NCBI GenBank assembly: GCA_900095095.1 | Contig: FMBT01000304.1 | Span: forward strand, 186,001-250,000 | Direction: 5' to 3' | DNA: 64,000 nt | From: Fragilariopsis cylindrus CCMP1102 | Lineage: Eukaryota > Bacillariophyta > Bacillariophyceae > Bacillariales > Bacillariaceae | Part shown: one piece after another, positions 3,658 to 64,000 of the stretch | How positions within the stretch are numbered: the first letter of the stretch is position 1 | Layout of the letters: every line of letters begins with the position of its first letter | Program-made: the position numbers and the translations under genes | Notes under the pieces: model-generated | What the model saw: only the letters and a program-made list of their open reading frames with translations | The model's database searches: none | Told to the model about the DNA's origin: nothing

Positions 3658-4593
3658 TGTAATAGGTTTGTCTTGTACAATGCATGTAACTAACAAAGTA
3701 ACGCAGTACAATATGCATGTATGTACTGTAGCAAACACAACACAAAAAGAAAAAAACAGCAAACAAGCTAACAGCTCAAACACACAGATTTTTTGTTTTC
3801 TTTCAGCTAGCGGGGCCTGCTGCTATGCCAGAATATAATATGATTGTGGATGACGATGGTACTTGTTTGTGATCGACGTGACGTTCTTCCGTTGTTATAG
3901 TTAGTACTACACCTTGCTGCTATGCCATCAGAGGCACAATAAATAGTGTCAGTTATTGTGGTGGAAGTTTTTGTTCCCACATGGAGGTAATGACGACTAT
4001 GAAAGAAGTGATAATGATAGTATTGATAACGGAGTAATTGAAAAAAATGTGAAAGCAGGAGAGACAAGAGACAAGAGACGGAGTGACATTTTTGATTCAT
4101 TTATATTTTGATTCATTTATTTTGAAGATTATTTCTACAGTATTTAATATTCCAAACAGGAACATATACATCGATACATACATCGGGGGGTATGTTAGGA
4201 CTATATCATATACTGTGCTAGTATGTCATGTCATGCCACTTCGCTTCGCTTCGGGGGGTGGGGAGGGGGTCAGTTGCTTAGGTATCACACTTGTAGACGT
4301 TATGTTACGTTGCACATATTGAAGGACCATCACGAAAAAAGAAGAAGAGATAAAGTTGGTGGTTTCGTTTCGTTTCGTTTGATTCATTTAAAATCCATTC
4401 TGATCCGATTTCGATTGTTCGGCAACGGACTGAAGCAAGTCGAATTGAATTGAATTGAATTGAATTGAATCAATCTTCCTCTTGTCGTTCATATACCCAC
4501 GTGTACACCACGCACGACAACGTGATATAATGACGATGTTGTTATGATTGTACTGTACTGTACTGTACTGTATTGTTCATATTCATACTACAT
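2910..4593. other. Intergenic region with simple repeats
   Basis: I see no supported gene. It holds a TG dinucleotide tract (about 3626-3654), a CGTTT pentamer run near 4363-4380, a TTGAA pentamer run (about 4440-4468) and a TACTG pentamer run (about 4550-4572). Short open frames here are low-complexity or lack any recognisable domain. Confidence 0.6.
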
Positions 4594-33536: not shown

Positions 33537-34088
33537 CTAGTCACCACTATGCTTGAGAAGATGAATTACTTCGCGGTTCATCTTTTTGTTGGAATGAGTA
33601 GCGCCAAGATTACATTCAATTTTAGCATGGTGCCCGTGTTCGTGTATGTTTACGGTATGGTGAACCAATCCTCTGGTATGGTTTTTGATTTTAGCTTCGT
33701 AACGATCAAATTCAAATAAAACACGACTTGGACCCCTTCCCTTATCATGATTTCCGTCCCAGTCTAAGAGATAGACCTTGCCTTTGGTGACGGCACATAT
33801 CATAACTGGTGTTAGCCCATGTTTCTTTGCGTCACGGATATACATCATGTGCTTTGTTGCAGCGGCTCCACCGACTCCGACTGCTAAGGCACCGATTTTA
33901 CTACCAAATCCGTCGTGTCCCATTTTCTTTTCAACATGCTTAGTAAGTACACCAGCTGCAAGCCCTGCTGCAGCAGGTGCAGCGACTCTTTCTCCGAAGT
34001 TAAGTGATACATCAAATAATCCGACTGCCAACACTTCTTTTTTGAGAAATGCAGAAGTTTCCTTGTTTAAGTGATGAGATTGAACCAT
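33537..34088 (-). CDS. Conserved-looking small protein with Gly/Ala-rich membrane segments
   Basis: 183 aa from the ATG at 34088 (MVQSHHLNKETS). The frame is open upstream to 34343, but those residues look like leader read-through. Residues about 18-80 contain two Gly/Ala-rich stretches (VAAPAAAGLAAGVLTKHVE and GSKIGALAVGVGGAAATKHM). These could insert in a membrane. Residues about 95-180 form a compact beta-rich domain: VMICAVTKGKVYLLDWDGNH, then GPSRVLFEFDRYEAKI, a His-rich strand and KIECNLGATHSNKKMNREVI. The second part looks like a PH-like or phage-shock-type beta barrel with a closing helix, but I do not recognise a named family. Clean domain boundaries argue that it is real. Confidence 0.6.
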   Translation of the reverse strand: MVQSHHLNKETSAFLKKEVLAVGLFDVSLNFGERVAAPAAAGLAAGVLTKHVEKKMGHDGFGSKIGALAVGVGGAAATKHMMYIRDAKKHGLTPVMICAVTKGKVYLLDWDGNHDKGRGPSRVLFEFDRYEAKIKNHTRGLVHHTVNIHEHGHHAKIECNLGATHSNKKMNREVIHLLKHSGD

Positions 34089-34769
34089 TATGTTTTTTTC
34101 CTTTTCTTTTCGTCTGTAAATTAGCTTTTGTTTGTTGATGATTGCGTTTTTTTGTGAGAAGATTAAGGTCAACCCCCAAAATGATTTTAATTCCACACGA
34201 AGTACGTAACCAGTGAAGAAAGCACGAGTTGATTTAGTCTTGGATCCAGAGTACGCTCGAAGAATATTGTTTCCTTCATGGCTCACGGCGTCATGAAGTA
34301 CTGCTACTAGTAGATCTAAGTCGCGTTGATTCTCATGGCGCATGCATACTGGTTAACTTCAAAAATGCTTACGCGATCGAATTTCCAGCCGCGCACTTTT
34401 CATAGCAAACTATGATTTTTTTAATTTGCTAAAACTTGAAAATTATAGCACGTAAAAGCGTGAGAGGGAGGTCGTAGATCATGACAGTTTCGCGCCGAGA
34501 ACAGAGTACAGTACAACTAAGTAATAGTACTGTAAGAGCGAAAGATCGATTACGAAGCCACGAATGAATGAATTTTGTTCCCGTTGCGTTCAAAAACAAA
34601 ATTGTGACCAGTGTAGAAGTATTGATCACGAATACTTGAGTTGACCATTGAGAAGATCATGCGAGAATTAACATGCTGATAAAACATCCTTTTCCAATCA
34701 TCTCACAAAATCAAATTTAGAAAACTATCAAATCAATCAATCAACCGAACAAACAAACAAAAACTAAAG
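34089..34769. promoter_or_regulatory. Divergent promoter region
   Basis: Spacer between two genes transcribed apart. It includes the leader of the secreted Cys-rich gene, with CAAT-type repeats (AATCAATCAATC, AACAAACAAACAAA) immediately before its start. No defined promoter motif can be claimed. Confidence 0.4.
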
Positions 34770-41437: not shown

Positions 41438-41447
41438 ACTGTACTGT
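41438..41447. other. Attachment-like 10-bp core, left border
   Basis: ACTGTACTGT, followed by GAC and the left inverted arm. The same core is at 45276-45285, 49116-49125, 52957-52966 and 56798-56807. Confidence 0.75.
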
Positions 41448-41747
41448 GACCGTGAAAAGTATACTAAAAGTATACCACCGCGCACAACAGTCGTATTCTT
41501 AATACAGTGCAAAATACAGTGGTAATATCAGACATGCACCAAGTGAAAAACCACTGTAAAATAACTAAGAGAATTTAACAAGTAGAAACACTAGTACAGT
41601 GCAAAAAGTAAAAGTTACTAGTGATTATTGACCTAATTTTTTTAGAATTTAACAGGCAGAAACACTAGTAAAACAACTGTGAACCGAAATTAATTTTTAC
41701 TAGTAATTACAGTGCAAAAAGTAAAAGTTACTACTAATTATTGACCT

Positions 41748-42110
41748 TTACGATCCTTTTTGATGTGGGTTTATCTTGAACAGTTCTCTGCAATTTTCAC
41801 TGCAAAATACGTACTGTTCATTGTCTGGATCAAATAAGTTGTTGGTCATACCGCAAGGTAGATGATGTACGTACTTCTTGCAGTTGTTGTTATTATTGCG
41901 GCATTTGTAAAGTCTATTAGTACAACCGCAGCCTGGTATATCACATCTTGCATTTTCTCCTCTACGATCAGTAGTATTGCCAGCATCTGCATTAGCTAAA
42001 GATTCTAAAGCTGCAGTAGCAACATCAGTAGGAGGCACGCTATTACCATTATTATTTGCAGTAGTAGTAGTAGCAGTAGTAGTAGTACGACCTCTTAGTA
42101 GAAGTTGTTA
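41748..42110 (-). CDS. Cys-rich tail frame of unit 1, separated by one TAA from the recombinase frame
   Basis: The TAA at 42110-42108 ends the recombinase frame. The same frame then stays open for 119 codons to 41748. It contains a Thr run and a probable zinc-binding module: CDIPGCGC, NRLYKC, CKKYVHHLPCG and YVFCSENC. The equivalent segments are 45585-45947, 49426-49788 and 53267-53629. A natural start is lacking: the first in-frame ATG is inside the module. It is therefore more likely reached by read-through or splicing than translated alone. Confidence 0.55.
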
Positions 42111-44776
42111 CTGGTGGGAAGCTTCTGCTTGTGCTTGGAGTTGTCGTCTCATGTTATCATTATTAATACGGCCAAATTCAGCTTGTTGAGAACGACGCTG
42201 CGTGCCACGATTATTATTATTTGTATTAATACAGCGTTGGTTTTGATGATTACTACTATTATTTTTACGGCTGGTGGTGGTGGTGGTAGTGGTGGTAGTG
42301 TTGTTGTTATTACTATTAGTAGTAGTACTAGTAGCAGCAGCAGCAGTAGTAGCAGCAGCAGTAGCAGTAGTAGTAGTAGTAGTGGTAGTAGTAGTGGTAT
42401 TTCTGCGTTGTTGGCGGATTCGATGACGCACAGTAGTGGATGGGGTTCTTTTTCTTTTCTTCTGTTTCTTGACTAGGATTGTTACGATTAGTAAGAGAAG
42501 GTAACAACAATTCTTTATCACAATCATTGCCATTTTTTCTTACGAATGAGGGAAGAATATGTTTTGACCATGTTGATACTACCCAATTCAGTGCTTTATT
42601 CTTTCCATTTTTAAAACAAAAAGAAACCCTCTCTCTAAGTACTTTAATACATTCATCATGATATATTTTAAGATCATTATTTGTTATTAAATCAAAATCT
42701 TCTGGTAATGATAATGATACATGCTTTTCTAAGTATCTAAATATTGGACACCAATGTAGTTTGAACGTTGTTCTTAATGTAGTTGTTGGTAGTGATTTCG
42801 GCTTCAAATTTCTAAAGGGACGAATGCGTTTCCCAGTTGTTGATGCATCCATACCACAGAACCAAAAAACAATACCAGCTTTTAGAGTAGCTGCTGTAGG
42901 AAAAGAGAAATGTTCGGGGACAAAATAAAAATGTCCACCATATGTAAATAGCATATCTGCTGCTACACCTGCAGTTTGTACCTGAGATGTTGCTGCTGCT
43001 GATGCAGATACATTATTGGCACTACCACTACCACCTAGGCGTTCAACAAGGTTTTCAATTCGCTCATCAAGATTTTCATTGTATCTTCGTTCAACCTCAG
43101 TAAACATCATTTGAATACGTTCATTTGTAGGATGGCCTGATTCTAAAGCACGGTCCTCAAACTCATCATGAATAGCTGCTCTAAGTTCAGCTGTTTGTGA
43201 TTGTTGATTATCTCTAAACTCTTTAACAATACCAAGAACTTCCTGGATTGATCGTGCGTGATTAATGTGCGGGGGAATACCAGTTGTAACTGTCATTACA
43301 CCATTGGTTGGATCAAGAGTAACAAGAGTTTTTAATCTGTCTAATAATTGACGGTTTAGATGATGAAGAATACTAATATTATTGAAATGATGACCAGGTA
43401 TCTTCGTCATTTGTTCTCGTAATGAGTTTGAATGATAGACAAAACAAGCAAAAGATCGTACCAAGATAGGTACAAAACATTGATGTTCTTCAAGAATACC
43501 CCCAAACATAATGTCCATACCACTTTTAATGTCATCATTTTTCATTGGATTAGTCATATTCCAATGTGGGGGCAACGTATCAAATTGATCTGAGTTGGCA
43601 TCTAATCCGCTCAAAACTCGACCAAGATATTGATCTCCCACACTCCCAAAGTGCCAATAACAGTCTAATACCTTTCCTATACTCCATTCACCTCTTCTAG
43701 CAATTGAATTGAGTGACGGTGGGACTGTTGTACCAGCAACAGCATAAGTAGATGATCCTTTGCGAAAGCTATAAGCATTGAGTCGTTTTTCTTCCATGTG
43801 ATTTTCAACTTCTTCTTTATGAGGTGCTACAACTGAAATAAGTTCTTCACAGTAATTAGCAGAAGCTGTACCATCCTTAACACCTTTGTTTAGGAATAAT
43901 TTGCTGTTTCCCTTCAACTTTTCTTCTCCCCGTAATGAAATCCAAATGCATAACCCTGTCCAAAAGCATAAACGCCAATCATAAGGATTAGCAAATATAT
44001 TCTTTTCTGATAAGCGTTCAGCATTTTTATCTGCTTTTGAGTCATCATATTTCACAACAATAGAATCAACACCACGGCTAAAATTGCCAAAATGAAGTGG
44101 ATCTATTGACGCTGATCTTGCCATACAGTTCCACTGAGACAACGTCCAGAACCAACCATGATATTGTTTGTATCTAATGCCCATTGTAAAACCAGAACAT
44201 ATAGTGTCATTGGAATTGGATCACTAGTGTTATCTTCCGTATTTCCTTTCTTCTTTGCATTTGTAAACTCTTTTTTATATCCTTTAGGGAATTTTTCAAT
44301 CTTTCTATAAAAGGATATAGGAAGTGGTTTGTCCGCAGTCTTAGATCCCCACATAATAGCATCCTTGTACTTTCTAAGATCATCCCAACTCTTCAATTTT
44401 TTATCGGGTTTCGTCTTGGTCTTCGTCAAGAAGTACAGAAAATATTCAGCATTCAGTCCATCATAGACAAGATCTTTCTTGTATTTACCTTTAAAGAAAT
44501 ACTTTGTTTTGTCATGCTGATCAGCTGTGCTTACATCATCTACACCAATTGCATAATATTCAGGGAGATGTTCCTTCCAATATTTCATGATTGCATTAAG
44601 TCTGTTACGATAATTGGTCCTACACTTGTCATCCATATCATACTTTGCTGTTTCGTTACACATTTCCTTATGGTCGTCGGGTAGAGCTAAACTTGCTCCA
44701 ATAATAGGACACTATCATTAGTGTTTCTATCATGAGCATAGTAGCGACCTGTTTGTGTTCCATTTGGCATGTTGAG
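42108..44776 (-). pseudogene. Crypton-like tyrosine recombinase, unit 1 copy (frame split)
   Basis: It is the same gene as at 45945-48608, but the frame is broken into overlapping pieces (42328-44184 and 44103-44663 are the largest) by three one-base length differences. All protein blocks are otherwise present and identical. It is either a recently inactivated copy or one with sequencing errors. Confidence 0.75.
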
Positions 44777-45092
44777 ATGATAACAATACGATGATTGATA
44801 TTCTATGAATGAATGACAGTAAATAGTATTTTATGAATGGATGAACCTACAGTAGCTACAGCAGCTAGCTAGTGCAAAGCAAATTAAGCGGTGAAAATTC
44901 TGAATTTTGTGCGCTGATGGACATTTTTTCTCTAATTTTGGTGGGTAAAACTGTCCCTCTAAGTAATTAATTGTACGCAGTAAATTAACACTGTGAAAAT
45001 TCCAAATTTTGTGCGCTGATGGACATTTTTCTTTAGTTTTGGTCAGTACCCTCTAAGTAATTAATAGTACTATAGATTAAGCAGTATGTGTC

Positions 45093-45132
45093 TGAAAAGT
45101 ATACGAGGGCTGTTCAATTTTGTATACTTTTC
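45093..45132. repeat. Palindromic GTATAC arm pair upstream of the recombinase gene
   Basis: GAAAAGTATAC (45094-45104) and GTATACTTTTC (45122-45132) face each other across a 17-bp loop. It recurs in each unit. It repeats the sequence of the terminal arms, so it is a likely extra binding site for the recombinase, perhaps for control of its own gene. Confidence 0.7.
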
Positions 45133-45584
45133 ACTGAGTACAACCGAGTACTAATAAATTACAGTAGAACTAGTATAAGAAAGTACACATCAGTACACAC
45201 TGGTACTTTTGAAAAGTATTCGTATTTGGTATACTTTCTCTAAAAACAAGTGAATCCCGTATACTTTTACGTAAGACTGTACTGTGACCGTGAAAAGTAT
45301 ACTAAAAGTATACCACCGCGCACAACAGTCGTATTCTTAATACAGTGCAAAATACAGTGGTAATATCAGACATGCACCAAGTGAAAAACCACTGTAAAAT
45401 AACTAGAGAATTTAACAAGTAGAAACACTAGTACAGTGCAAAAAGTAAAAGTTACTAGTGATTATTGACCTAATTTTTTTAGAATTTAACAGGCAGAAAC
45501 ACTAGTAAAACAACTGTGAACCGAAATTAATTTTTACTAGTAATTACAGTGCAAAAAGTAAAAGTTACTACTAATTATTGACCT

Positions 45585-45947
45585 TTACGATCCTTTTTGA
45601 TGTGGGTTTATCTTGAACAGTTCTCTGCAATTTTCACTGCAAAATACGTACTGTTCATTGTCTGGATCAAATAAGTTGTTGGTCATACCGCAAGGTAGAT
45701 GATGTACGTACTTCTTGCAGTTGTTGTTATTATTGCGGCATTTGTAAAGTCTATTAGTACAACCGCAGCCTGGTATATCACATCTTGCATTTTCTCCTCT
45801 ACGATCAGTAGTATTGCCAGCATCTGCATTAGCTAAAGATTCTAAAGCTGCAGTAGCAACATCAGTAGGAGGCACGCTATTACCATTATTATTTGCAGTA
45901 GTAGTAGTAGCAGTAGTAGTAGTACGACCTCTTAGTAGAAGTTGTTA
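45585..45947 (-). CDS. Cys-rich tail frame of unit 2
   Basis: Identical to the tail of unit 1. It is in the recombinase frame, directly after the stop codon. Confidence 0.55.
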
Positions 45948-48608
45948 CTGGTGGGAAGCTTCTGCTTGTGCTTGGAGTTGTCGTCTCATGTTATCATTAT
46001 TAATACGGCCAAATTCAGCTTGTTGAGAACGACGCTGCGTGCCACGATTATTATTATTTGTATTAATACAGCGTTGGTTTTGATGATTACTACTATTATT
46101 TTTACGGCTGGTGGTGGTGGTGGTAGTGGTGGTAGTGTTGTTGTTATTACTATTAGTAGTAGTACTAGTAGCAGCAGCAGCAGTAGTAGCAGCAGCAGTA
46201 GCAGTAGTAGTAGTAGTAGTGGTAGTAGTAGTGGTATTTCTGCGTTGTTGGCGGATTCGATGACGCACAGTAGTGGATGGGGTTCTTTTTCTTTTCTTCT
46301 GTTCTTGACTAGGATTGTTACGATTAGTAAGAGAAGGTAACAACAATTCTTTATCACAATCATTGCCATTTTTTCTTACGAATGAGGGAAGAATATGTTT
46401 TGACCATGTTGATACTACCCAATTCAGTGCTTTATTCTTTCCATTTTTAAAACAAAAAGAAACCCTCTCTCTAAGTACTTTAATACATTCATCATGATAT
46501 ATTTTAAGATCATTATTTGTTATTAAATCAAAATCTTCTGGTAATGATAATGATACATGCTTTTCTAAGTATCTAAATATTGGACACCAATGTAGTTTGA
46601 ACGTTGTTCTTAATGTAGTTGTTGGTAGTGATTTCGGCTTCAAATTTCTAAAGGGACGAATGCGTTTCCCAGTTGTTGATGCATCCATACCACAGAACCA
46701 AAAAACAATACCAGCTTTTAGAGTAGCTGCTGTAGGAAAAGAGAAATGTTCGGGGACAAAATAAAAATGTCCACCATATGTAAATAGCATATCTGCTGCT
46801 ACACCTGCAGTTTGTACCTGAGATGTTGCTGCTGCTGATGCAGATACATTATTGGCACTACCACTACCACCTAGGCGTTCAACAAGGTTTTCAATTCGCT
46901 CATCAAGATTTTCATTGTATCTTCGTTCAACCTCAGTAAACATCATTTGAATACGTTCATTTGTAGGATGGCCTGATTCTAAAGCACGGTCCTCAAACTC
47001 ATCATGAATAGCTGCTCTAAGTTCAGCTGTTTGTGATTGTTGATTATCTCTAAACTCTTTAACAATACCAAGAACTTCCTGGATTGATCGTGCGTGATTA
47101 ATGTGCGGGGGAATACCAGTTGTAACTGTCATTACACCATTGGTTGGATCAAGAGTAACAAGAGTTTTTAATCTGTCTAATAATTGACGGTTTAGATGAT
47201 GAAGAATACTAATATTATTGAAATGATGACCAGGTATCTTCGTCATTTGTTCTCGTAATGAGTTTGAATGATAGACAAAACAAGCAAAAGATCGTACCAA
47301 GATAGGTACAAAACATTGATGTTCTTCAAGAATACCCCCAAACATAATGTCCATACCACTTTTAATGTCATCATTTTTCATTGGATTAGTCATATTCCAA
47401 TGTGGGGGCAACGTATCAAATTGATCTGAGTTGGCATCTAATCCGCTCAAAACTCGACCAAGATATTGATCTCCCACACTCCCAAAGTGCCAATAACAGT
47501 CTAATACCTTTCCTATACTCCATTCACCTCTTCTAGCAATTGAATTGAGTGACGGTGGGACTGTTGTACCAGCAACAGCATAAGTAGATGATCCTTTGCG
47601 AAAGCTATAAGCATTGAGTCGTTTTTCTTCCATGTGATTTTCAACTTCTTCTTTATGAGGTGCTACAACTGAAATAAGTTCTTCACAGTAATTAGCAGAA
47701 GCTGTACCATCCTTAACACCTTTGTTTAGGAATAATTTGCTGTTTCCCTTCAACTTTTCTTCTCCCCGTAATGAAATCCAAATGCATAACCCTGTCCAAA
47801 AGCATAAACGCCAATCATAAGGATTAGCAAATATATTCTTTTCTGATAAGCGTTCAGCATTTTTATCTGCTTTTGAGTCATCATATTTCACAACAATAGA
47901 ATCAACACCACGGCTAAAATTGCCAAAATGAAGTGGATCTATTGACGCTGATCTTGCCATACAGTTCCACTGAGACAACGTCCAGAACCAAACCATGATA
48001 TTGTTTGTATCTAATGCCCATTGTAAAACCAGAACATATAGTGTCATTGGAATTGGATCACTAGTGTTATCTTCCGTATTTCCTTTCTTCTTTGCATTTG
48101 TAAACTCTTTTTTATATCCTTTAGGGAATTTTTCAATCTTTCTATAAAAGGATATAGGAAGTGGTTTGTCCGCAGTCTTAGATCCCCACATAATAGCATC
48201 CTTGTACTTTCTAAGATCATCCCAACTCTTCAATTTTTTATCGGGTTTCGTCTTGGTCTTCGTCAAGAAGTACAGAAAATATTCAGCATTCAGTCCATCA
48301 TAGACAAGATCTTTCTTGTATTTACCTTTAAAGAAATACTTTGTTTTGTCATGCTGATCAGCTGTGCTTACATCATCTACACCAATTGCATAATATTCAG
48401 GGAGATGTTCCTTCCAATATTTCATGATTGCATTAAGTCTGTTACGATAATTGGTCCTACACTTGTCATCCATATCATACTTTGCTGTTTCGTTACACAT
48501 TTCCTTATGGTCGTCGGGTAGAGCTAAACTTGCTCCAATAATAGGAGCACTATCATTAGTGTTTCTATCATGAGCATAGTAGCGACCTGTTTGTGTTCCA
48601 TTTGGCAT
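45945..48608 (-). CDS. Crypton-like tyrosine recombinase
   Basis: 887 codons, intact. Residues 40-200 are an N-terminal helical DNA-contact part (NRLNAIMKYWKEHLPEYY). The catalytic domain runs about 205-395. Arg219 is in WNCMARSAS and Lys246 in DDSKADK. The IFANP block near 259-263 is typical of Crypton and DIRS recombinases. The box-II segment is YSFRKG (Arg337), then GEWS (Trp363) and DCYWHF with the candidate nucleophile Tyr372. Box II has Tyr334 where most relatives have His. Residues about 540-580 are a coiled coil. Residues about 605-690 (VFWFCGMDAS, IRPFRNLKP, FKLHWCPIFRYLEK) resemble the GCR1-type DNA-binding domain often present in Cryptons. The tail is Thr/Asn/Arg-rich. No reverse transcriptase is present, so this is a DNA element that should move as a circle. 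Confidence 0.85.
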   Translation of the reverse strand: MPNGTQTGRYYAHDRNTNDSAPIIGASLALPDDHKEMCNETAKYDMDDKCRTNYRNRLNAIMKYWKEHLPEYYAIGVDDVSTADQHDKTKYFFKGKYKKDLVYDGLNAEYFLYFLTKTKTKPDKKLKSWDDLRKYKDAIMWGSKTADKPLPISFYRKIEKFPKGYKKEFTNAKKKGNTEDNTSDPIPMTLYVLVLQWALDTNNIMVWFWTLSQWNCMARSASIDPLHFGNFSRGVDSIVVKYDDSKADKNAERLSEKNIFANPYDWRLCFWTGLCIWISLRGEEKLKGNSKLFLNKGVKDGTASANYCEELISVVAPHKEEVENHMEEKRLNAYSFRKGSSTYAVAGTTVPPSLNSIARRGEWSIGKVLDCYWHFGSVGDQYLGRVLSGLDANSDQFDTLPPHWNMTNPMKNDDIKSGMDIMFGGILEEHQCFVPILVRSFACFVYHSNSLREQMTKIPGHHFNNISILHHLNRQLLDRLKTLVTLDPTNGVMTVTTGIPPHINHARSIQEVLGIVKEFRDNQQSQTAELRAAIHDEFEDRALESGHPTNERIQMMFTEVERRYNENLDERIENLVERLGGSGSANNVSASAAATSQVQTAGVAADMLFTYGGHFYFVPEHFSFPTAATLKAGIVFWFCGMDASTTGKRIRPFRNLKPKSLPTTTLRTTFKLHWCPIFRYLEKHVSLSLPEDFDLITNNDLKIYHDECIKVLRERVSFCFKNGKNKALNWVVSTWSKHILPSFVRKNGNDCDKELLLPSLTNRNNPSQEQKKRKRTPSTTVRHRIRQQRRNTTTTTTTTTTTATAAATTAAAATSTTTNSNNNNTTTTTTTTTSRKNNSSNHQNQRCINTNNNNRGTQRRSQQAEFGRINNDNMRRQLQAQAEASHQ

Positions 48609-49425
48609 GTTGAGATGATAACAATACGATGATTGATATTCTATGAATGAATGACAGTAAATAGTATTTTATGAATGGATGAACCTACAGTAGCTACAGC
48701 AGCTAGCTAGTGCAAAGCAAATTAAAGCGGTGAAAATTCTGAATTTTGTGCGCTGATGGACATTTTTTCTCTAATTTTGGTGGGTAAAACTGTCCCTCTA
48801 AGTAATTAATTGTACGCAGTAAATTAACACTGTGAAAATTCCAAATTTTGTGCGCTGATGGACATTTTTCTTTAGTTTTGGTCAGTACCCTCTAAGTAAT
48901 TAATAGTACTATAGATTAAGCAGTATGTGTCTGAAAAGTATACGAGGGGCTGTTCAATTTTGTATACTTTTCACTGAGTACAACCGAGTACTAATAAATT
49001 ACAGTAGAACTAGTATAAGAAAGTACACATCAGTACACACTGGTACTTTTGAAAAGTATTCGTATTTGGTATACTTTCTCTAAAAACAAGTGAATCCCGT
49101 ATACTTTTACGTAAGACTGTACTGTGACCGTGAAAAGTATACTAAAAGTATACCACCGCGCACAACAGTCGTATTCTTAATACAGTGCAAAATACAGTGG
49201 TAATATCAGACATGCACCAAGTGAAAAACCACTGTAAAATAACTAAGAGAATTTAACAAGTAGAAACACTAGTACAGTGCAAAAAGTAAAAGTTACTAGT
49301 GATTATTGACCTAATTTTTTTAGAATTTAACAGGCAGAAACACTAGTAAAACAACTGTGAACCGAAATTAATTTTTACTAGTAATTACAGTGCAAAAAGT
49401 AAAAGTTACTACTAATTATTGACCT

Positions 49426-49788
49426 TTACGATCCTTTTTGATGTGGGTTTATCTTGAACAGTTCTCTGCAATTTTCACTGCAAAATACGTACTGTTCATT
49501 GTCTGGATCAAATAAGTTGTTGGTCATACCGCAAGGTAGATGATGTACGTACTTCTTGCAGTTGTTGTTATTATTGCGGCATTTGTAAAGTCTATTAGTA
49601 CAACCGCAGCCTGGTATATCACATCTTGCATTTTCTCCTCTACGATCAGTAGTATTGCCAGCATCTGCATTAGCTAAAGATTCTAAAGCTGCAGTAGCAA
49701 CATCAGTAGGAGGCACGCTATTACCATTATTATTTGCAGTAGTAGTAGTAGCAGTAGTAGTAGTACGACCTCTTAGTAGAAGTTGTTA
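49426..49788 (-). CDS. Cys-rich tail frame of unit 3
   Basis: Identical in sequence to the tails of the other units and again separated from the recombinase frame by one TAA. Confidence 0.55.
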
Positions 49789-52449
49789 CTGGTGGGAAGC
49801 TTCTGCTTGTGCTTGGAGTTGTCGTCTCATGTTATCATTATTAATACGGCCAAATTCAGCTTGTTGAGAACGACGCTGCGTGCCACGATTATTATTATTT
49901 GTATTAATACAGCGTTGGTTTTGATGATTACTACTATTATTTTTACGGCTGGTGGTGGTGGTGGTAGTGGTGGTAGTGTTGTTGTTATTACTATTAGTAG
50001 TAGTACTAGTAGCAGCAGCAGCAGTAGTAGCAGCAGCAGTAGCAGTAGTAGTAGTAGTAGTGGTAGTAGTAGTGGTATTTCTGCGTTGTTGGCGGATTCG
50101 ATGACGCACAGTAGTGGATGGGGTTCTTTTTCTTTTCTTCTGTTCTTGACTAGGATTGTTACGATTAGTAAGAGAAGGTAACAACAATTCTTTATCACAA
50201 TCATTGCCATTTTTTCTTACGAATGAGGGAAGAATATGTTTTGACCATGTTGATACTACCCAATTCAGTGCTTTATTCTTTCCATTTTTAAAACAAAAAG
50301 AAACCCTCTCTCTAAGTACTTTAATACATTCATCATGATATATTTTAAGATCATTATTTGTTATTAAATCAAAATCTTCTGGTAATGATAATGATACATG
50401 CTTTTCTAAGTATCTAAATATTGGACACCAATGTAGTTTGAACGTTGTTCTTAATGTAGTTGTTGGTAGTGATTTCGGCTTCAAATTTCTAAAGGGACGA
50501 ATGCGTTTCCCAGTTGTTGATGCATCCATACCACAGAACCAAAAAACAATACCAGCTTTTAGAGTAGCTGCTGTAGGAAAAGAGAAATGTTCGGGGACAA
50601 AATAAAAATGTCCACCATATGTAAATAGCATATCTGCTGCTACACCTGCAGTTTGTACCTGAGATGTTGCTGCTGCTGATGCAGATACATTATTGGCACT
50701 ACCACTACCACCTAGGCGTTCAACAAGGTTTTCAATTCGCTCATCAAGATTTTCATTGTATCTTCGTTCAACCTCAGTAAACATCATTTGAATACGTTCA
50801 TTTGTAGGATGGCCTGATTCTAAAGCACGGTCCTCAAACTCATCATGAATAGCTGCTCTAAGTTCAGCTGTTTGTGATTGTTGATTATCTCTAAACTCTT
50901 TAACAATACCAAGAACTTCCTGGATTGATCGTGCGTGATTAATGTGCGGGGGAATACCAGTTGTAACTGTCATTACACCATTGGTTGGATCAAGAGTAAC
51001 AAGAGTTTTTAATCTGTCTAATAATTGACGGTTTAGATGATGAAGAATACTAATATTATTGAAATGATGACCAGGTATCTTCGTCATTTGTTCTCGTAAT
51101 GAGTTTGAATGATAGACAAAACAAGCAAAAGATCGTACCAAGATAGGTACAAAACATTGATGTTCTTCAAGAATACCCCCAAACATAATGTCCATACCAC
51201 TTTTAATGTCATCATTTTTCATTGGATTAGTCATATTCCAATGTGGGGGCAACGTATCAAATTGATCTGAGTTGGCATCTAATCCGCTCAAAACTCGACC
51301 AAGATATTGATCTCCCACACTCCCAAAGTGCCAATAACAGTCTAATACCTTTCCTATACTCCATTCACCTCTTCTAGCAATTGAATTGAGTGACGGTGGG
51401 ACTGTTGTACCAGCAACAGCATAAGTAGATGATCCTTTGCGAAAGCTATAAGCATTGAGTCGTTTTTCTTCCATGTGATTTTCAACTTCTTCTTTATGAG
51501 GTGCTACAACTGAAATAAGTTCTTCACAGTAATTAGCAGAAGCTGTACCATCCTTAACACCTTTGTTTAGGAATAATTTGCTGTTTCCCTTCAACTTTTC
51601 TTCTCCCCGTAATGAAATCCAAATGCATAACCCTGTCCAAAAGCATAAACGCCAATCATAAGGATTAGCAAATATATTCTTTTCTGATAAGCGTTCAGCA
51701 TTTTTATCTGCTTTTGAGTCATCATATTTCACAACAATAGAATCAACACCACGGCTAAAATTGCCAAAATGAAGTGGATCTATTGACGCTGATCTTGCCA
51801 TACAGTTCCACTGAGACAACGTCCAGAACCAAACCATGATATTGTTTGTATCTAATGCCCATTGTAAAACCAGAACATATAGTGTCATTGGAATTGGATC
51901 ACTAGTGTTATCTTCCGTATTTCCTTTCTTCTTTGCATTTGTAAACTCTTTTTTATATCCTTTAGGGAATTTTTCAATCTTTCTATAAAAGGATATAGGA
52001 AGTGGTTTGTCCGCAGTCTTAGATCCCCACATAATAGCATCCTTGTACTTTCTAAGATCATCCCAACTCTTCAATTTTTTATCGGGTTTCGTCTTGGTCT
52101 TCGTCAAGAAGTACAGAAAATATTCAGCATTCAGTCCATCATAGACAAGATCTTTCTTGTATTTACCTTTAAAGAAATACTTTGTTTTGTCATGCTGATC
52201 AGCTGTGCTTACATCATCTACACCAATTGCATAATATTCAGGGAGATGTTCCTTCCAATATTTCATGATTGCATTAAGTCTGTTACGATAATTGGTCCTA
52301 CACTTGTCATCCATATCATACTTTGCTGTTTCGTTACACATTTCCTTATGGTCGTCGGGTAGAGCTAAACTTGCTCCAATAATAGGAGCACTATCATTAG
52401 TGTTTCTATCATGAGCATAGTAGCGACCTGTTTGTGTTCCATTTGGCAT
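49786..52449 (-). CDS. Crypton-like tyrosine recombinase, unit 3
   Basis: 887 codons, identical in translation to the unit 2 protein, with all catalytic candidates (Arg219, Lys246, Arg337, Trp363, Tyr372). Upstream lie the 110-bp direct repeat and the palindromic GTATAC arms, which probably contain its promoter. Confidence 0.85.
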   Translation of the reverse strand: MPNGTQTGRYYAHDRNTNDSAPIIGASLALPDDHKEMCNETAKYDMDDKCRTNYRNRLNAIMKYWKEHLPEYYAIGVDDVSTADQHDKTKYFFKGKYKKDLVYDGLNAEYFLYFLTKTKTKPDKKLKSWDDLRKYKDAIMWGSKTADKPLPISFYRKIEKFPKGYKKEFTNAKKKGNTEDNTSDPIPMTLYVLVLQWALDTNNIMVWFWTLSQWNCMARSASIDPLHFGNFSRGVDSIVVKYDDSKADKNAERLSEKNIFANPYDWRLCFWTGLCIWISLRGEEKLKGNSKLFLNKGVKDGTASANYCEELISVVAPHKEEVENHMEEKRLNAYSFRKGSSTYAVAGTTVPPSLNSIARRGEWSIGKVLDCYWHFGSVGDQYLGRVLSGLDANSDQFDTLPPHWNMTNPMKNDDIKSGMDIMFGGILEEHQCFVPILVRSFACFVYHSNSLREQMTKIPGHHFNNISILHHLNRQLLDRLKTLVTLDPTNGVMTVTTGIPPHINHARSIQEVLGIVKEFRDNQQSQTAELRAAIHDEFEDRALESGHPTNERIQMMFTEVERRYNENLDERIENLVERLGGSGSANNVSASAAATSQVQTAGVAADMLFTYGGHFYFVPEHFSFPTAATLKAGIVFWFCGMDASTTGKRIRPFRNLKPKSLPTTTLRTTFKLHWCPIFRYLEKHVSLSLPEDFDLITNNDLKIYHDECIKVLRERVSFCFKNGKNKALNWVVSTWSKHILPSFVRKNGNDCDKELLLPSLTNRNNPSQEQKKRKRTPSTTVRHRIRQQRRNTTTTTTTTTTTATAAATTAAAATSTTTNSNNNNTTTTTTTTTSRKNNSSNHQNQRCINTNNNNRGTQRRSQQAEFGRINNDNMRRQLQAQAEASHQ

Positions 52450-53266
52450 GTTGAGATGATAACAATACGATGATTGATATTCTATGAATGAATGACAGTA
52501 AATAGTATTTTATGAATGGATGAACCTACAGTAGCTACAGCAGCTAGCTAGTGCAAAGCAAATTAAAGCGGTGAAAATTCTGAATTTTGTGCGCTGATGG
52601 ACATTTTTTCTCTAATTTTGGTGGGTAAAACTGTCCCTCTAAGTAATTAATTGTACGCAGTAAATTAACACTGTGAAAATTCCAAATTTTGTGCGCTGAT
52701 GGACATTTTTCTTTAGTTTTGGTCAGTACCCTCTAAGTAATTAATAGTACTATAGATTAAGCAGTATGTGTCTGAAAAGTATACGAGGGGCTGTTCAATT
52801 TTGTATACTTTTCACTGAGTACAACCGAGTACTAATAAATTACAGTAGAACTAGTATAAGAAAGTACACATCAGTACACACTGGTACTTTTGAAAAGTAT
52901 TCGTATTTGGTATACTTTCTCTAAAAACAAGTGAATCCCGTATACTTTTACGTAAGACTGTACTGTGACCGTGAAAAGTATACTAAAAGTATACCACCGC
53001 GCACAACAGTCGTATTCTTAATACAGTGCAAAATACAGTGGTAATATCAGACATGCACCAAGTGAAAAACCACTGTAAAATAACTAAGAGAATTTAACAA
53101 GTAGAAACACTAGTACAGTGCAAAAAGTAAAAGTTACTAGTGATTATTGACCTAATTTTTTTAGAATTTAACAGGCAGAAACACTAGTAAAACAACTGTG
53201 AACCGAAATTAATTTTTACTAGTAATTACAGTGCAAAAAGTAAAAGTTACTACTAATTATTGACCT

Positions 53267-53629
53267 TTACGATCCTTTTTGATGTGGGTTTATCTTGAAC
53301 AGTTCTCTGCAATTTTCACTGCAAAATACGTACTGTTCATTGTCTGGATCAAATAAGTTGTTGGTCATACCGCAAGGTAGATGATGTACGTACTTCTTGC
53401 AGTTGTTGTTATTATTGCGGCATTTGTAAAGTCTATTAGTACAACCGCAGCCTGGTATATCACATCTTGCATTTTCTCCTCTACGATCAGTAGTATTGCC
53501 AGCATCTGCATTAGCTAAAGATTCTAAAGCTGCAGTAGCAACATCAGTAGGAGGCACGCTATTACCATTATTATTTGCAGTAGTAGTAGTAGCAGTAGTA
53601 GTAGTACGACCTCTTAGTAGAAGTTGTTA
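53267..53629 (-). CDS. Cys-rich tail frame of unit 4
   Basis: Same as the other tails. Conservation of frame and cysteines in all units is expected from their near-identity and so is not independent evidence of function. Confidence 0.55.
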
Positions 53630-56290
53630 CTGGTGGGAAGCTTCTGCTTGTGCTTGGAGTTGTCGTCTCATGTTATCATTATTAATACGGCCAAATTCAG
53701 CTTGTTGAGAACGACGCTGCGTGCCACGATTATTATTATTTGTATTAATACAGCGTTGGTTTTGATGATTACTACTATTATTTTTACGGCTGGTGGTGGT
53801 GGTGGTAGTGGTGGTAGTGTTGTTGTTATTACTATTAGTAGTAGTACTAGTAGCAGCAGCAGCAGTAGTAGCAGCAGCAGTAGCAGTAGTAGTAGTAGTA
53901 GTGGTAGTAGTAGTGGTATTTCTGCGTTGTTGGCGGATTCGATGACGCACAGTAGTGGATGGGGTTCTTTTTCTTTTCTTCTGTTCTTGACTAGGATTGT
54001 TACGATTAGTAAGAGAAGGTAACAACAATTCTTTATCACAATCATTGCCATTTTTTCTTACGAATGAGGGAAGAATATGTTTTGACCATGTTGATACTAC
54101 CCAATTCAGTGCTTTATTCTTTCCATTTTTAAAACAAAAAGAAACCCTCTCTCTAAGTACTTTAATACATTCATCATGATATATTTTAAGATCATTATTT
54201 GTTATTAAATCAAAATCTTCTGGTAATGATAATGATACATGCTTTTCTAAGTATCTAAATATTGGACACCAATGTAGTTTGAACGTTGTTCTTAATGTAG
54301 TTGTTGGTAGTGATTTCGGCTTCAAATTTCTAAAGGGACGAATGCGTTTCCCAGTTGTTGATGCATCCATACCACAGAACCAAAAAACAATACCAGCTTT
54401 TAGAGTAGCTGCTGTAGGAAAAGAGAAATGTTCGGGGACAAAATAAAAATGTCCACCATATGTAAATAGCATATCTGCTGCTACACCTGCAGTTTGTACC
54501 TGAGATGTTGCTGCTGCTGATGCAGATACATTATTGGCACTACCACTACCACCTAGGCGTTCAACAAGGTTTTCAATTCGCTCATCAAGATTTTCATTGT
54601 ATCTTCGTTCAACCTCAGTAAACATCATTTGAATACGTTCATTTGTAGGATGGCCTGATTCTAAAGCACGGTCCTCAAACTCATCATGAATAGCTGCTCT
54701 AAGTTCAGCTGTTTGTGATTGTTGATTATCTCTAAACTCTTTAACAATACCAAGAACTTCCTGGATTGATCGTGCGTGATTAATGTGCGGGGGAATACCA
54801 GTTGTAACTGTCATTACACCATTGGTTGGATCAAGAGTAACAAGAGTTTTTAATCTGTCTAATAATTGACGGTTTAGATGATGAAGAATACTAATATTAT
54901 TGAAATGATGACCAGGTATCTTCGTCATTTGTTCTCGTAATGAGTTTGAATGATAGACAAAACAAGCAAAAGATCGTACCAAGATAGGTACAAAACATTG
55001 ATGTTCTTCAAGAATACCCCCAAACATAATGTCCATACCACTTTTAATGTCATCATTTTTCATTGGATTAGTCATATTCCAATGTGGGGGCAACGTATCA
55101 AATTGATCTGAGTTGGCATCTAATCCGCTCAAAACTCGACCAAGATATTGATCTCCCACACTCCCAAAGTGCCAATAACAGTCTAATACCTTTCCTATAC
55201 TCCATTCACCTCTTCTAGCAATTGAATTGAGTGACGGTGGGACTGTTGTACCAGCAACAGCATAAGTAGATGATCCTTTGCGAAAGCTATAAGCATTGAG
55301 TCGTTTTTCTTCCATGTGATTTTCAACTTCTTCTTTATGAGGTGCTACAACTGAAATAAGTTCTTCACAGTAATTAGCAGAAGCTGTACCATCCTTAACA
55401 CCTTTGTTTAGGAATAATTTGCTGTTTCCCTTCAACTTTTCTTCTCCCCGTAATGAAATCCAAATGCATAACCCTGTCCAAAAGCATAAACGCCAATCAT
55501 AAGGATTAGCAAATATATTCTTTTCTGATAAGCGTTCAGCATTTTTATCTGCTTTTGAGTCATCATATTTCACAACAATAGAATCAACACCACGGCTAAA
55601 ATTGCCAAAATGAAGTGGATCTATTGACGCTGATCTTGCCATACAGTTCCACTGAGACAACGTCCAGAACCAAACCATGATATTGTTTGTATCTAATGCC
55701 CATTGTAAAACCAGAACATATAGTGTCATTGGAATTGGATCACTAGTGTTATCTTCCGTATTTCCTTTCTTCTTTGCATTTGTAAACTCTTTTTTATATC
55801 CTTTAGGGAATTTTTCAATCTTTCTATAAAAGGATATAGGAAGTGGTTTGTCCGCAGTCTTAGATCCCCACATAATAGCATCCTTGTACTTTCTAAGATC
55901 ATCCCAACTCTTCAATTTTTTATCGGGTTTCGTCTTGGTCTTCGTCAAGAAGTACAGAAAATATTCAGCATTCAGTCCATCATAGACAAGATCTTTCTTG
56001 TATTTACCTTTAAAGAAATACTTTGTTTTGTCATGCTGATCAGCTGTGCTTACATCATCTACACCAATTGCATAATATTCAGGGAGATGTTCCTTCCAAT
56101 ATTTCATGATTGCATTAAGTCTGTTACGATAATTGGTCCTACACTTGTCATCCATATCATACTTTGCTGTTTCGTTACACATTTCCTTATGGTCGTCGGG
56201 TAGAGCTAAACTTGCTCCAATAATAGGAGCACTATCATTAGTGTTTCTATCATGAGCATAGTAGCGACCTGTTTGTGTTCCATTTGGCAT
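53627..56290 (-). CDS. Crypton-like tyrosine recombinase, unit 4
   Basis: 887 codons, identical in translation to units 2 and 3. As the outermost unit on the 5' side, its upstream region ends in unique host DNA. Any transcript specific to this copy could be recognised by that junction. Confidence 0.85.
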   Translation of the reverse strand: MPNGTQTGRYYAHDRNTNDSAPIIGASLALPDDHKEMCNETAKYDMDDKCRTNYRNRLNAIMKYWKEHLPEYYAIGVDDVSTADQHDKTKYFFKGKYKKDLVYDGLNAEYFLYFLTKTKTKPDKKLKSWDDLRKYKDAIMWGSKTADKPLPISFYRKIEKFPKGYKKEFTNAKKKGNTEDNTSDPIPMTLYVLVLQWALDTNNIMVWFWTLSQWNCMARSASIDPLHFGNFSRGVDSIVVKYDDSKADKNAERLSEKNIFANPYDWRLCFWTGLCIWISLRGEEKLKGNSKLFLNKGVKDGTASANYCEELISVVAPHKEEVENHMEEKRLNAYSFRKGSSTYAVAGTTVPPSLNSIARRGEWSIGKVLDCYWHFGSVGDQYLGRVLSGLDANSDQFDTLPPHWNMTNPMKNDDIKSGMDIMFGGILEEHQCFVPILVRSFACFVYHSNSLREQMTKIPGHHFNNISILHHLNRQLLDRLKTLVTLDPTNGVMTVTTGIPPHINHARSIQEVLGIVKEFRDNQQSQTAELRAAIHDEFEDRALESGHPTNERIQMMFTEVERRYNENLDERIENLVERLGGSGSANNVSASAAATSQVQTAGVAADMLFTYGGHFYFVPEHFSFPTAATLKAGIVFWFCGMDASTTGKRIRPFRNLKPKSLPTTTLRTTFKLHWCPIFRYLEKHVSLSLPEDFDLITNNDLKIYHDECIKVLRERVSFCFKNGKNKALNWVVSTWSKHILPSFVRKNGNDCDKELLLPSLTNRNNPSQEQKKRKRTPSTTVRHRIRQQRRNTTTTTTTTTTTATAAATTAAAATSTTTNSNNNNTTTTTTTTTSRKNNSSNHQNQRCINTNNNNRGTQRRSQQAEFGRINNDNMRRQLQAQAEASHQ

Positions 56291-56797
56291 GTTGAGATGA
56301 TAACAATACGATGATTGATATTCTATGAATGAATGACAGTAAATAGTATTTTATGAATGGATGAACCTACAGTAGCTACAGCAGCTAGCTAGTGCAAAGC
56401 AAATTAAAGCGGTGAAAATTCTGAATTTTGTGCGCTGATGGACATTTTTTCTCTAATTTTGGTGGGTAAAACTGTCCCTCTAAGTAATTAATTGTACGCA
56501 GTAAATTAACACTGTGAAAATTCCAAATTTTGTGCGCTGATGGACATTTTTCTTTAGTTTTGGTCAGTACCCTCTAAGTAATTAATAGTACTATAGATTA
56601 AGCAGTATGTGTCTGAAAAGTATACGAGGGGCTGTTCAATTTTGTATACTTTTCACTGAGTACAACCGAGTACTAATAAATTACAGTAGAACTAGTATAA
56701 GAAAGTACACATCAGTACACACTGGTACTTTTGAAAAGTATTCGTATTTGGTATACTTTCTCTAAAAACAAGTGAATCCCGTATACTTTTACGTAAG

Positions 56798-56807
56798 ACT
56801 GTACTGT
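56798..56807. other. Attachment-like 10-bp core, right border
   Basis: ACTGTACTGT after the right inverted arm and TAAG. It is identical to the left-border core at 41438-41447. Confidence 0.75.
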
Positions 56808-61824: not shown

Positions 61825-64000
61825 TTATAAAGTCTTGCATTTCTTTCTGCATGTAGCGGGACAAAAGAATTTTACTTTCTTTAATTTACCAGTGACTTTA
61901 TTCTTTTTACCTTCTACATCCTTTTTACATCTCTTGACAGGTTTTAAAGCAACGTATGAATCACATGCATTTTTATTGCCTTGGAATCGGAATGTCTTTA
62001 AATCTTCACACTTACCACGTGGAGTCTTGCATTTCTTCTTGCATGTACCAGGACAGTAGAATCTAACTTTTTTCCCAGTGCCAGGTTGCTTCCTTTTACA
62101 TCTCTTGATGGGTTTGAAAGCAACGTATGATTCACAAGTTCTTGAAGAATCCCCTTCAAAGTTGAAGTCAAGATCATTTGAGCAGCCACTGGTAGGTACA
62201 GCGCTAGGTATTGAACTTGAACTTGGCTCCAAACTTGGTTCTAAACTTGGAACTGTGCTGGGAATGCTACTTGGATCAGCACTAGGAGCAGAAGTGGGTA
62301 CATCACTTGGTGAGAGACTAGGCGTGAGGCTTGGACTAGAACTTGGACCGGCACTGGGTACAGCACTAGGTGTTGAACTTGGAACATCACTTGGAATGGT
62401 GCTGGGTTTGCTACTAGGATCAGCACTAGGAGCAAAACTAGGTACATCACTTGGTACCAAACTTGGGACAGTGCTGGGAATGCTACTTGGATCAGCACTA
62501 GGAGCAGAAGTGGGTACATCACTTGGCGAAAGACTAGGCGTCAGGCTTGGACTGGAACTGGGACCGGCACTGGGTACAGCACTAGGTGTTGAACTTGGAA
62601 CATCACTTGGAATGGTGCTGGGTTTGCTACTAGGATCAGCACTAGGAGAAAAACTAGGTACATCACTTGGTATGAAACTTGGGACAGTGCTTGGATTGCT
62701 ACTGGGATCAACACTAGGAGCAGAACTAGGTACATCACTTGGTGAAAGACTAGGCGTCAGGCTTGGACTGGAACTGGGACCAGCAGTCGGTACAGAACTA
62801 GGTAGTGAACTTGGTGCTAAACTTGGGACAGTACTTGGACTGCTACTGGGATCAACACTAGGAGCAGAACTAGGTACATCACTTGGTGAAAGACTAGGCG
62901 TCAGGCTTGGACTGGAACTGGGACCAGCACTTGGTACAGAACTAGGTAGTGAACTTGGTGCTAAACTTGGGACAGTACTTGGACTGCTACTTTGGGCAGC
63001 ACTAGGAGCAGAACTTGGTACATTACTTGGTGAAAGACTAGGCTTCAGGCTTGGACTGGAACTTGGACCAGCACTTGGACCAGCACTAGGTAGTAAACTT
63101 ACAGTTGCTGTAACACTTGGAGCAGAACTAGGCTCAAATCCCGGAGCAAAGCAGCCTTGTACAAAATTTTGGCACCATGGACCAACTGTTGGACCTAGGT
63201 TTTCATCTGGACACTCACTTCCACTCAACATTCTATCAGTTGAAACATCATCAGGAGTCTTTTCAGCCCATGTGGAAAGACATTGATTGAAGTAACTTAC
63301 ACGAAACATACTACCCATATCCTTTACACTTGACGTGTCCCATCCATCAATAGGTCTATCGAAATAAAAATTACCATAAAACATACTGTTCATTGAAGTT
63401 ACAGCCGATGTATTCCAATCACCAATAAATTGGTTGAAGCCATATCCTTGTACTGGACTAGAAAACATTTTTACCATTGACTTGACACTTGACGTGTCCC
63501 ATTTGCCAATAGGTTCGTTGAAATAAGTATAATAAAACATGTTCTCCATTGTTGTTACAGCTGATGTATTCCAATCATCAATAGATTGCTGGAATTTTCC
63601 TCCATAAAACATACCAGCCATTGTGTTGACACTTGACGTGTCCCATAGACCAATAGGTTTGTTGAAAGCACAGCTATCATAACCCGTATCCGTACCAAAC
63701 ATTTCTTTCATTGTTGTTACAGCCGATGTATTCCAACCACCAATAGCTTGATCAAAATCAAGAGCATAGGAAAACATTTTTTCCATACTTGTCACTTGAG
63801 AAGTATCCCAACACTCTATGGGATCATTAAATGACTCTTTTTCATAAAAAGCCATATTCATATCAGTAACACTACCCGTATTCCAGCAATTAATATCAAC
63901 ACTCAGGTATTCTGAGTTTACCTGGTTCATATCCTCATCAATAAATTCACTGATCAATGTTGCAAAATCTGTGCCACTCTTATTAATAATAGGACGTCCA
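61825..64000 (-). CDS. BspA-like (DUF285) repeat surface protein with Ser-Pro linker, 5' end outside the window
   Basis: The frame is open to the window edge; no ATG within it is convincing (GRPIINKSGTDFATLISEF continues upstream), so at least 724 aa are present. Eight DUF285-type repeats come first. They alternate WNTSAVTxM and WDTSSVxxM, each with an MF turn and an F-N/D-x-x-I-x-x-W strand. This is the BspA-like leucine-rich type of repeat, made for adhesion or recognition. A linker of about 300 residues with the pattern PSxxPSxxPS follows and contains internal duplications of about 70-80 residues. It would be extended and probably glycosylated or cell-wall crossing. The C-terminus has two copies of a Cys module (SYVAFKPIKRCK...FYCPGTCKKKCK). 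It is likely secreted and cell-surface located. Confidence 0.85.
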   Translation of the reverse strand, partial: GRPIINKSGTDFATLISEFIDEDMNQVNSEYLSVDINCWNTGSVTDMNMAFYEKESFNDPIECWDTSQVTSMEKMFSYALDFDQAIGGWNTSAVTTMKEMFGTDTGYDSCAFNKPIGLWDTSSVNTMAGMFYGGKFQQSIDDWNTSAVTTMENMFYYTYFNEPIGKWDTSSVKSMVKMFSSPVQGYGFNQFIGDWNTSAVTSMNSMFYGNFYFDRPIDGWDTSSVKDMGSMFRVSYFNQCLSTWAEKTPDDVSTDRMLSGSECPDENLGPTVGPWCQNFVQGCFAPGFEPSSAPSVTATVSLLPSAGPSAGPSSSPSLKPSLSPSNVPSSAPSAAQSSSPSTVPSLAPSSLPSSVPSAGPSSSPSLTPSLSPSDVPSSAPSVDPSSSPSTVPSLAPSSLPSSVPTAGPSSSPSLTPSLSPSDVPSSAPSVDPSSNPSTVPSFIPSDVPSFSPSADPSSKPSTIPSDVPSSTPSAVPSAGPSSSPSLTPSLSPSDVPTSAPSADPSSIPSTVPSLVPSDVPSFAPSADPSSKPSTIPSDVPSSTPSAVPSAGPSSSPSLTPSLSPSDVPTSAPSADPSSIPSTVPSLEPSLEPSSSSIPSAVPTSGCSNDLDFNFEGDSSRTCESYVAFKPIKRCKRKQPGTGKKVRFYCPGTCKKKCKTPRGKCEDLKTFRFQGNKNACDSYVALKPVKRCKKDVEGKKNKVTGKLKKVKFFCPATCRKKCKTL

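Follow-up and report, generated by a model that had tools for sequence, protein, structure and literature searches.

The window analysed here is a stretch of 64,000 nucleotides from Fragilariopsis cylindrus CCMP1102 (G000:C464:186001-250000; other contigs of the genome are likewise given as C numbers). It carries an array of four Crypton-like elements, head-to-tail and in the same orientation, with one core per junction. The 10-mer ACTGTACTGT stands at the unit borders (41438, 45276, 49116, 52957 and 56798), and positions, unit lengths and alignment confirmed the four-unit tandem with five such 10-mers that an earlier note on this DNA had described. Its further claim of a single core at each junction and a core at both array ends was borne out by the unit borders. 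The same 10-mer occurs at five extra places in the window (4552, 4557, 4562, 18079, 36722 (minus strand)), and shuffling the window gave a mean of 0.24 occurrences. The features of the array are as follows, with ORF standing for open reading frame.

41438..45275: unit 1, 3838 bp; five private single-base indels and 0 substitutions
45276..49115: unit 2, 3840 bp; a single private indel of one base
49116..52956: unit 3, 3841 bp; same sequence as unit 4
52957..56797: unit 4, 3841 bp
41438..41447, plus strand: left-border core and left end of the element, ACTGTA + CTGT(GACC...)
56798..56803: right-border core ACTGTA, placed by comparison with contig C582 and with single copies
56804-56807: CTGT after the right-border core, target DNA; C582 has ACTGTACCGT at the corresponding place
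42111-44830: recombinase ORF of unit 1, seen as tblastn pieces and broken by single-base indels
45945..48608, minus strand: tyrosine recombinase ORF of unit 2, 887 residues from the first ATG; from catalytic columns and fold
49786..52449, minus strand: tyrosine recombinase ORF of unit 3; from the ORF list and catalytic columns
53627..56290, minus strand: tyrosine recombinase ORF of unit 4; from the ORF list
49426..49785, minus strand: zinc-finger-like C-terminal region of unit 3, in frame beyond a premature stop; weak zf-FCS/MYM match
49129..49142, plus strand: left subterminal inverted-repeat arm of unit 3, 14 bp
49144-49153: second AAAAGTATAC after the left arm of unit 3
52940..52952, plus strand: right subterminal inverted-repeat arm of unit 3, 13 bp, ending 4 bp before the core
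52775..52812, plus strand: extra arm motifs of unit 3 near its right end, AAAAGTATAC at 52775 and GTATACTTTT at 52803
52893 and 52910: copies of the arm motif with one mismatch, right end of unit 3

Alignment of the four units revealed no substitution and six single-base indels, five of them private to unit 1 and one to unit 2; scattered as they are, they are probably residual read or assembly errors. The genome searched comprised 67.9 Mb in 818 contigs, and as the DNA searches score best candidates only, all copy counts given here are lower bounds. Compared to four dispersed full-length copies, unit 3 showed 38, 30, 52 and 83 substitutions and 3, 18, 33 and 103 indel columns, respectively. 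The array units are thus identical but for indels while the dispersed copies are 30-83 substitutions away, and therefore the duplication was local, with the resident element itself as the source of the array.

Pfam scans yielded nothing above the curated cut-off to any recombinase family, neither for the element ORFs nor, among the families listed, for 50 aligned proteins. PDB sequence searches returned matches irrelevant to a recombinase (E 0.37; in the other search, best E 0.002, Huntingtin and a designed protein). The identity of the recombinase rests on residues and fold. In the alignment of 50 proteins, R239, K266, K277, R357 and W383 were present in 50/50 and Y392 in 49/50, and position 354 was Y in 34 and H in 16, which is the catalytic pattern R..K..[H/Y]xxR..[H/W]..Y of tyrosine recombinases; the catalytic roles of these residues we take from their spacing in Cre/XerD. 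The best structural matches were Ndc10, Flp and Cre, which share the tyrosine recombinase fold with the element's protein at a sequence identity of ~7-14% among the matches listed. Ndc10 is a centromere protein and no recombinase. Named relatives of the protein come from Thalassiosira profunda (36%) and Seminavis robusta (48% over half of the query). The premature in-frame stop at 49786-49788 recurs at the matching position of units 2 and 4 and in none of the four dispersed full-length copies. The zinc-finger-like region beyond it matched PF06467 weakly (E 0.0011; 19.2 bits, cut-off 22.4), and loss of this C-terminus might alter targeting.

No reverse transcriptase was detected up to E 1 in a Pfam scan of four ORFs of unit 3, which speaks against a DIRS/Ngaro retroelement, where reverse transcriptase/RNase H accompany the tyrosine recombinase. 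The size of 3.84 kb and the lack of a DUF3435 match in the element ORFs speak against a Starship, a giant cargo element whose tyrosine recombinase has DUF3435. A tyrosine recombinase as the sole recognised gene, no reverse transcriptase, and terminal direct repeats of 4-6 bp with a single copy in the empty site (ACTGTA) are features of Cryptons. The assignment to a Crypton-like tyrosine-recombinase element made in the earlier note is backed by catalytic residues, fold matches, the short terminal direct repeats and the single-core empty site.

The same note had taken the whole 10-mer ACTGTACTGT as the core. This was an over-reading and was dropped after comparison with single copies and with C582: independent insertions have only ACTGTA, at most ACTGTAC (6-7 bp), in common. 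Within the array the CTGT after the core is the element's own left end; at the right border it is target, where C582 has CCGT. Right ends read TAAG-ACTGTA-target and left ends target-ACTGTA-CTGTGA, and some ends vary within the core (left, for example, AAGTTACTGTGA; right, for example, ACTGAA). The core was followed by CWGT at 15/25 insertion sites versus 5/64 ACTGTA sites of the window outside the array (p 7e-7); without C324:49224 and six solo right ends the ratio was 12/18 versus 5/64 (Fisher p 9e-7). Genome-wide, ACTGTACWGT was counted 1618 times on the forward and 1645 times on the reverse strand compared to 409 and 376 for the pattern read backwards, an approximately fourfold excess in which the palindromic form ACTGTACAGT counts on both strands. 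This excess far exceeds what the elements found explain; copies in the window lie at 4552-4571, 18079 and 36722.

The right arm of unit 3 aligns to the left arm with one 1-base gap. In the joint there is an inverted repeat (CGTGAAAAGTATAC versus GTATACTTTTACG; 13 matches and a one-base gap) whose halves are 17 bp apart. Unit 3 has five exact copies of the motif GTATACTTTT/AAAAGTATAC, none of them farther than ~190 bp from an end, compared to none (and seven with at most one mismatch) in the rest of the window. The motif may be a binding site of the recombinase. Elements or fragments at further loci (L061-L065, L069-L072) have mostly unlike bodies, yet their right ends agree over the closing 20-30 bp (GCGAATCCCGTATACTTTTACGTAAG) ahead of the core.

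The left flank of the array matched C582 at 92% over the nearest 1.37 kb, the match ending at 52030, and the right flank matched at 98% from 52041 onwards. Between them C582 has one ACTGTA without duplication, followed by CCGT (CTGT in the array haplotype), and upstream matches are collinear with the window (to C582:28141; C582:19248 versus window 3443). Most likely, judged from this collinearity, C582 is the other haplotype at the array locus; a duplicated segment rather than an allele is possible. The empty site with one core that had been predicted for an array-free allele was thus found in C582, the probable sister chromosome. Unique DNA had also been claimed outside the array, which holds for the immediate flanks, save this one allele-like contig, and fails farther out, where multi-copy sequences lie.

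Besides the array, 16 loci have both ends, and 13 of these were searched for empty sites with 100 bp of left and 110 bp of right flank joined together; three of the 17 both-end loci (C582, C609 and C324:48635) were left out. An element-free counterpart contig was obtained for 9/14 loci including the array and 8/13 without it, one of them (C640) via the right flank alone. The joined-flank search gave none for the remaining five of the 14 (C324, C420, C411, C651 and C88). At three of the nine loci (C464, C648 and C120) the counterpart was exact at the junction with a single core, and at three (C486, C632 and C640) it was 5 bp short of the one-core prediction. Of the other counterparts, that of C299 was diverged (83%), and those of C158 (87%) and C54 (79%) were without the site. 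The 5-bp shortfalls may be register slips in an ACTGT repeat or a coupling sequence carried in the joint; coupling sequences of the Tn916 type are a candidate likeness for these differences between filled and empty sites. Two loci that are apparently allelic, L062 and L063 (C173 and C221), differ in ACTGT repeats and in bases beside the element end.

Non-autonomous relatives of 1.1-1.66 kb with the same two ends as the element are found elsewhere in the genome, and 12 units were compared (L015-L020, L024, L025, L027, L058, L060). C582 itself bears one of them (L024, 17724-19230), whose right flank aligns to the window close to 3443. Its left 250 bp flank gave no match in the window, so that no empty site was demonstrated there.

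Five of at least 42 right ends are immediately followed by a left end of the family: three of these belong to the array, one to C158 and one to C609. Downstream sequence was left out for six of the 42 (C360, C351, C447, C462, C86 and C651:214031), none of which adjoins a listed left end with at most 3 mismatches. The tandem in C158 is a core-sharing pair of non-autonomous units of 1598 and 1626 bp with 0 substitutions and 28 bp of indel; taking it for a pair of unlike units, and hence as proof of independent insertion, was rejected on the lack of substitutions. At the C609 joint the upstream neighbour is alike over only ~60 bp at its end, and there is one extra ACTGT. The element in C609 (L060, C609:27600-30200, 1680-2240) also has its last 176 bp in three tandem copies; their joints read CTG|AAAAGTAT and look like the product of recombination between the terminal core and an internal site that bears an arm.

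We consider it probable that the units were duplicated at the core by the element's own recombinase, either in a trans exchange or through re-integration of a circle, and that unequal exchange maybe expanded the array; the empty site in C582, opposite four practically identical copies, points the same way. The units and their identity, the cores, the empty-site contig, the conserved residues and a second tandem pair are observations; that the tyrosine recombinase made the junctions, by which route, and that it is active we infer. The element would be a 3.84-kb Crypton-type DNA transposon with the tyrosine recombinase as its only recognised gene, and this enzyme would act on a genomic ACTGTA, most often one within ACTGTACWGT, and recombine it with a circle joint composed of right arm, TAAG, ACTGTA, CTGTGAC and left arm. 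First, a single element would have inserted at an ACTGTA of one haplotype. The same recombination would later have joined a right core to the left core of another copy, head-to-tail with one core per junction, either in trans, with sister chromatids or homologues as partners, or through an excised circle re-integrating at the resident core beside its donor. Circle integration beside a resident copy is possible, and trans exchange at the cores between sister chromatids or homologues would yield the same structure; either route would account for the junctions at C464 and at C158 alike. Repeats of this step, or ordinary unequal exchange among the identical units, could then have brought the number to four. 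Scans of viral contigs, the sole collection scanned, detected neither a circle joint nor a recombinase protein.

Three other explanations were considered. A duplication made by the host at the 10-bp direct repeats, whether through replication slippage, rare unequal crossing-over or microhomology-mediated repair, and then extended by homologous unequal crossing-over between identical units, would find its identical 10-mers at the unit borders and would leave units as alike as a recent duplication gives, and growth from two to four units requires nothing further. Its initial step, though, would have to bring together 10-bp repeats that lie 3.84 kb from each other, and the same exact junction is also present at the unrelated C158, in a family inserting at that core, so that one point would have been struck twice; we regard it as unlikely. 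An assembly artefact, with a lower real unit number, appears improbable: the single-base indels of unit 1 and unit 2, unaccompanied by substitutions, do resemble uncorrected read errors and the copy number of such arrays is easily misjudged, but the private indels differ between units, which are not exact copies of one path, array and flanks lie inside one 580-kb contig, and there is a second tandem at C158. That circles from elsewhere integrated independently at the resident left end, as a preferred site, is very improbable, for although the left end ACTGTACTGTGA fits the preferred ACTGTACWGT target and C609 has an unlike neighbour, offset by 5 bp, random visitors would differ, whereas the neighbours in C464 and C158 show 0 substitutions with dispersed full-length copies 30-83 from the array, and random choice, in a rough model assuming ACTGTACWGT sites, 17 insertions and 30 resident ends, predicts 0.16-0.32 tandems (P(>=2) = 0.01-0.04).

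At stake is how Cryptons, thought to be cut-and-paste circles without a replication gene, gain copies. Starting from duplication by the element's own recombinase, we tentatively suggest that Crypton-type elements may amplify locally, such that failed excision in trans, in which a right core meets the left core of a sister or homologous copy, would turn a cut-and-paste element that has no replication of its own into a copy-gaining one and the array joints would be ready-made circle joints. A single diatom genome with a core-to-core array, an element-free counterpart and short non-autonomous relatives offers a testable system for site, joint and route.

Farther from the array, two overlapping ORFs at 352-2909 (minus strand) resemble by eye a mariner/IS630-type transposase gene, and an ORF at 61825-63957 (minus strand) carries a long PS-rich repeat together with WDTSxVxxMxxMF repeats that look BspA/DUF285-like by eye. 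Upstream of the array, the host protein at 33540-34343 has one 96% relative, and its named relatives are from Fragilariopsis cylindrus (56-60% identity); together with the relatives of the recombinase, these agree with a diatom host.

According to Kojima and Jurka (2011; PMC3212892), Cryptons are marked by a tyrosine recombinase together with short direct repeats at their termini and are believed to transpose as circles, and their transposition was stated to be as yet unstudied. The word "tandem" occurs there once, in a reference title, and "head-to-tail" is absent; a literature search for tandem or head-to-tail arrays of Cryptons or other tyrosine recombinase elements, with subscription papers mostly outside it, turned up no report of a Crypton array. 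The host, the repeat length and the absence of GCR1_C point to CryptonS as the nearest group. According to that paper, CryptonS share with our element a stramenopile host, the tyrosine recombinase, terminal direct repeats of 5-6 bp and a proposed circle intermediate. They also have a recombinase without GCR1_C, for which we found no match in the element ORFs nor among the 25 families listed for the 50 aligned proteins. A C48 peptidase domain is present in some CryptonS (PMC3212892), and one of the 50 aligned proteins matched it weakly. The core differs, being ACTGTA here and TATGG at the termini of most CryptonS (PMC3212892), which does not exclude membership because TATGG marks the majority and not all of them. 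Further differences are the zinc-finger-like C-terminal region, the clustered arm motifs at both ends and the head-to-tail arrays. For the latter, the closest likeness, described in PMC5704250, is with bacterial integrative elements, where SGI1 forms arrays of up to 6 copies and integrative and conjugative elements (ICE) and cis-mobilizable elements (CIME) undergo accretion, site-specific recombination at a resident att site giving head-to-tail units. Those arrays are built of conjugative or mobilizable bacterial elements, whereas the units described here are those of a 3.84-kb eukaryotic transposon.
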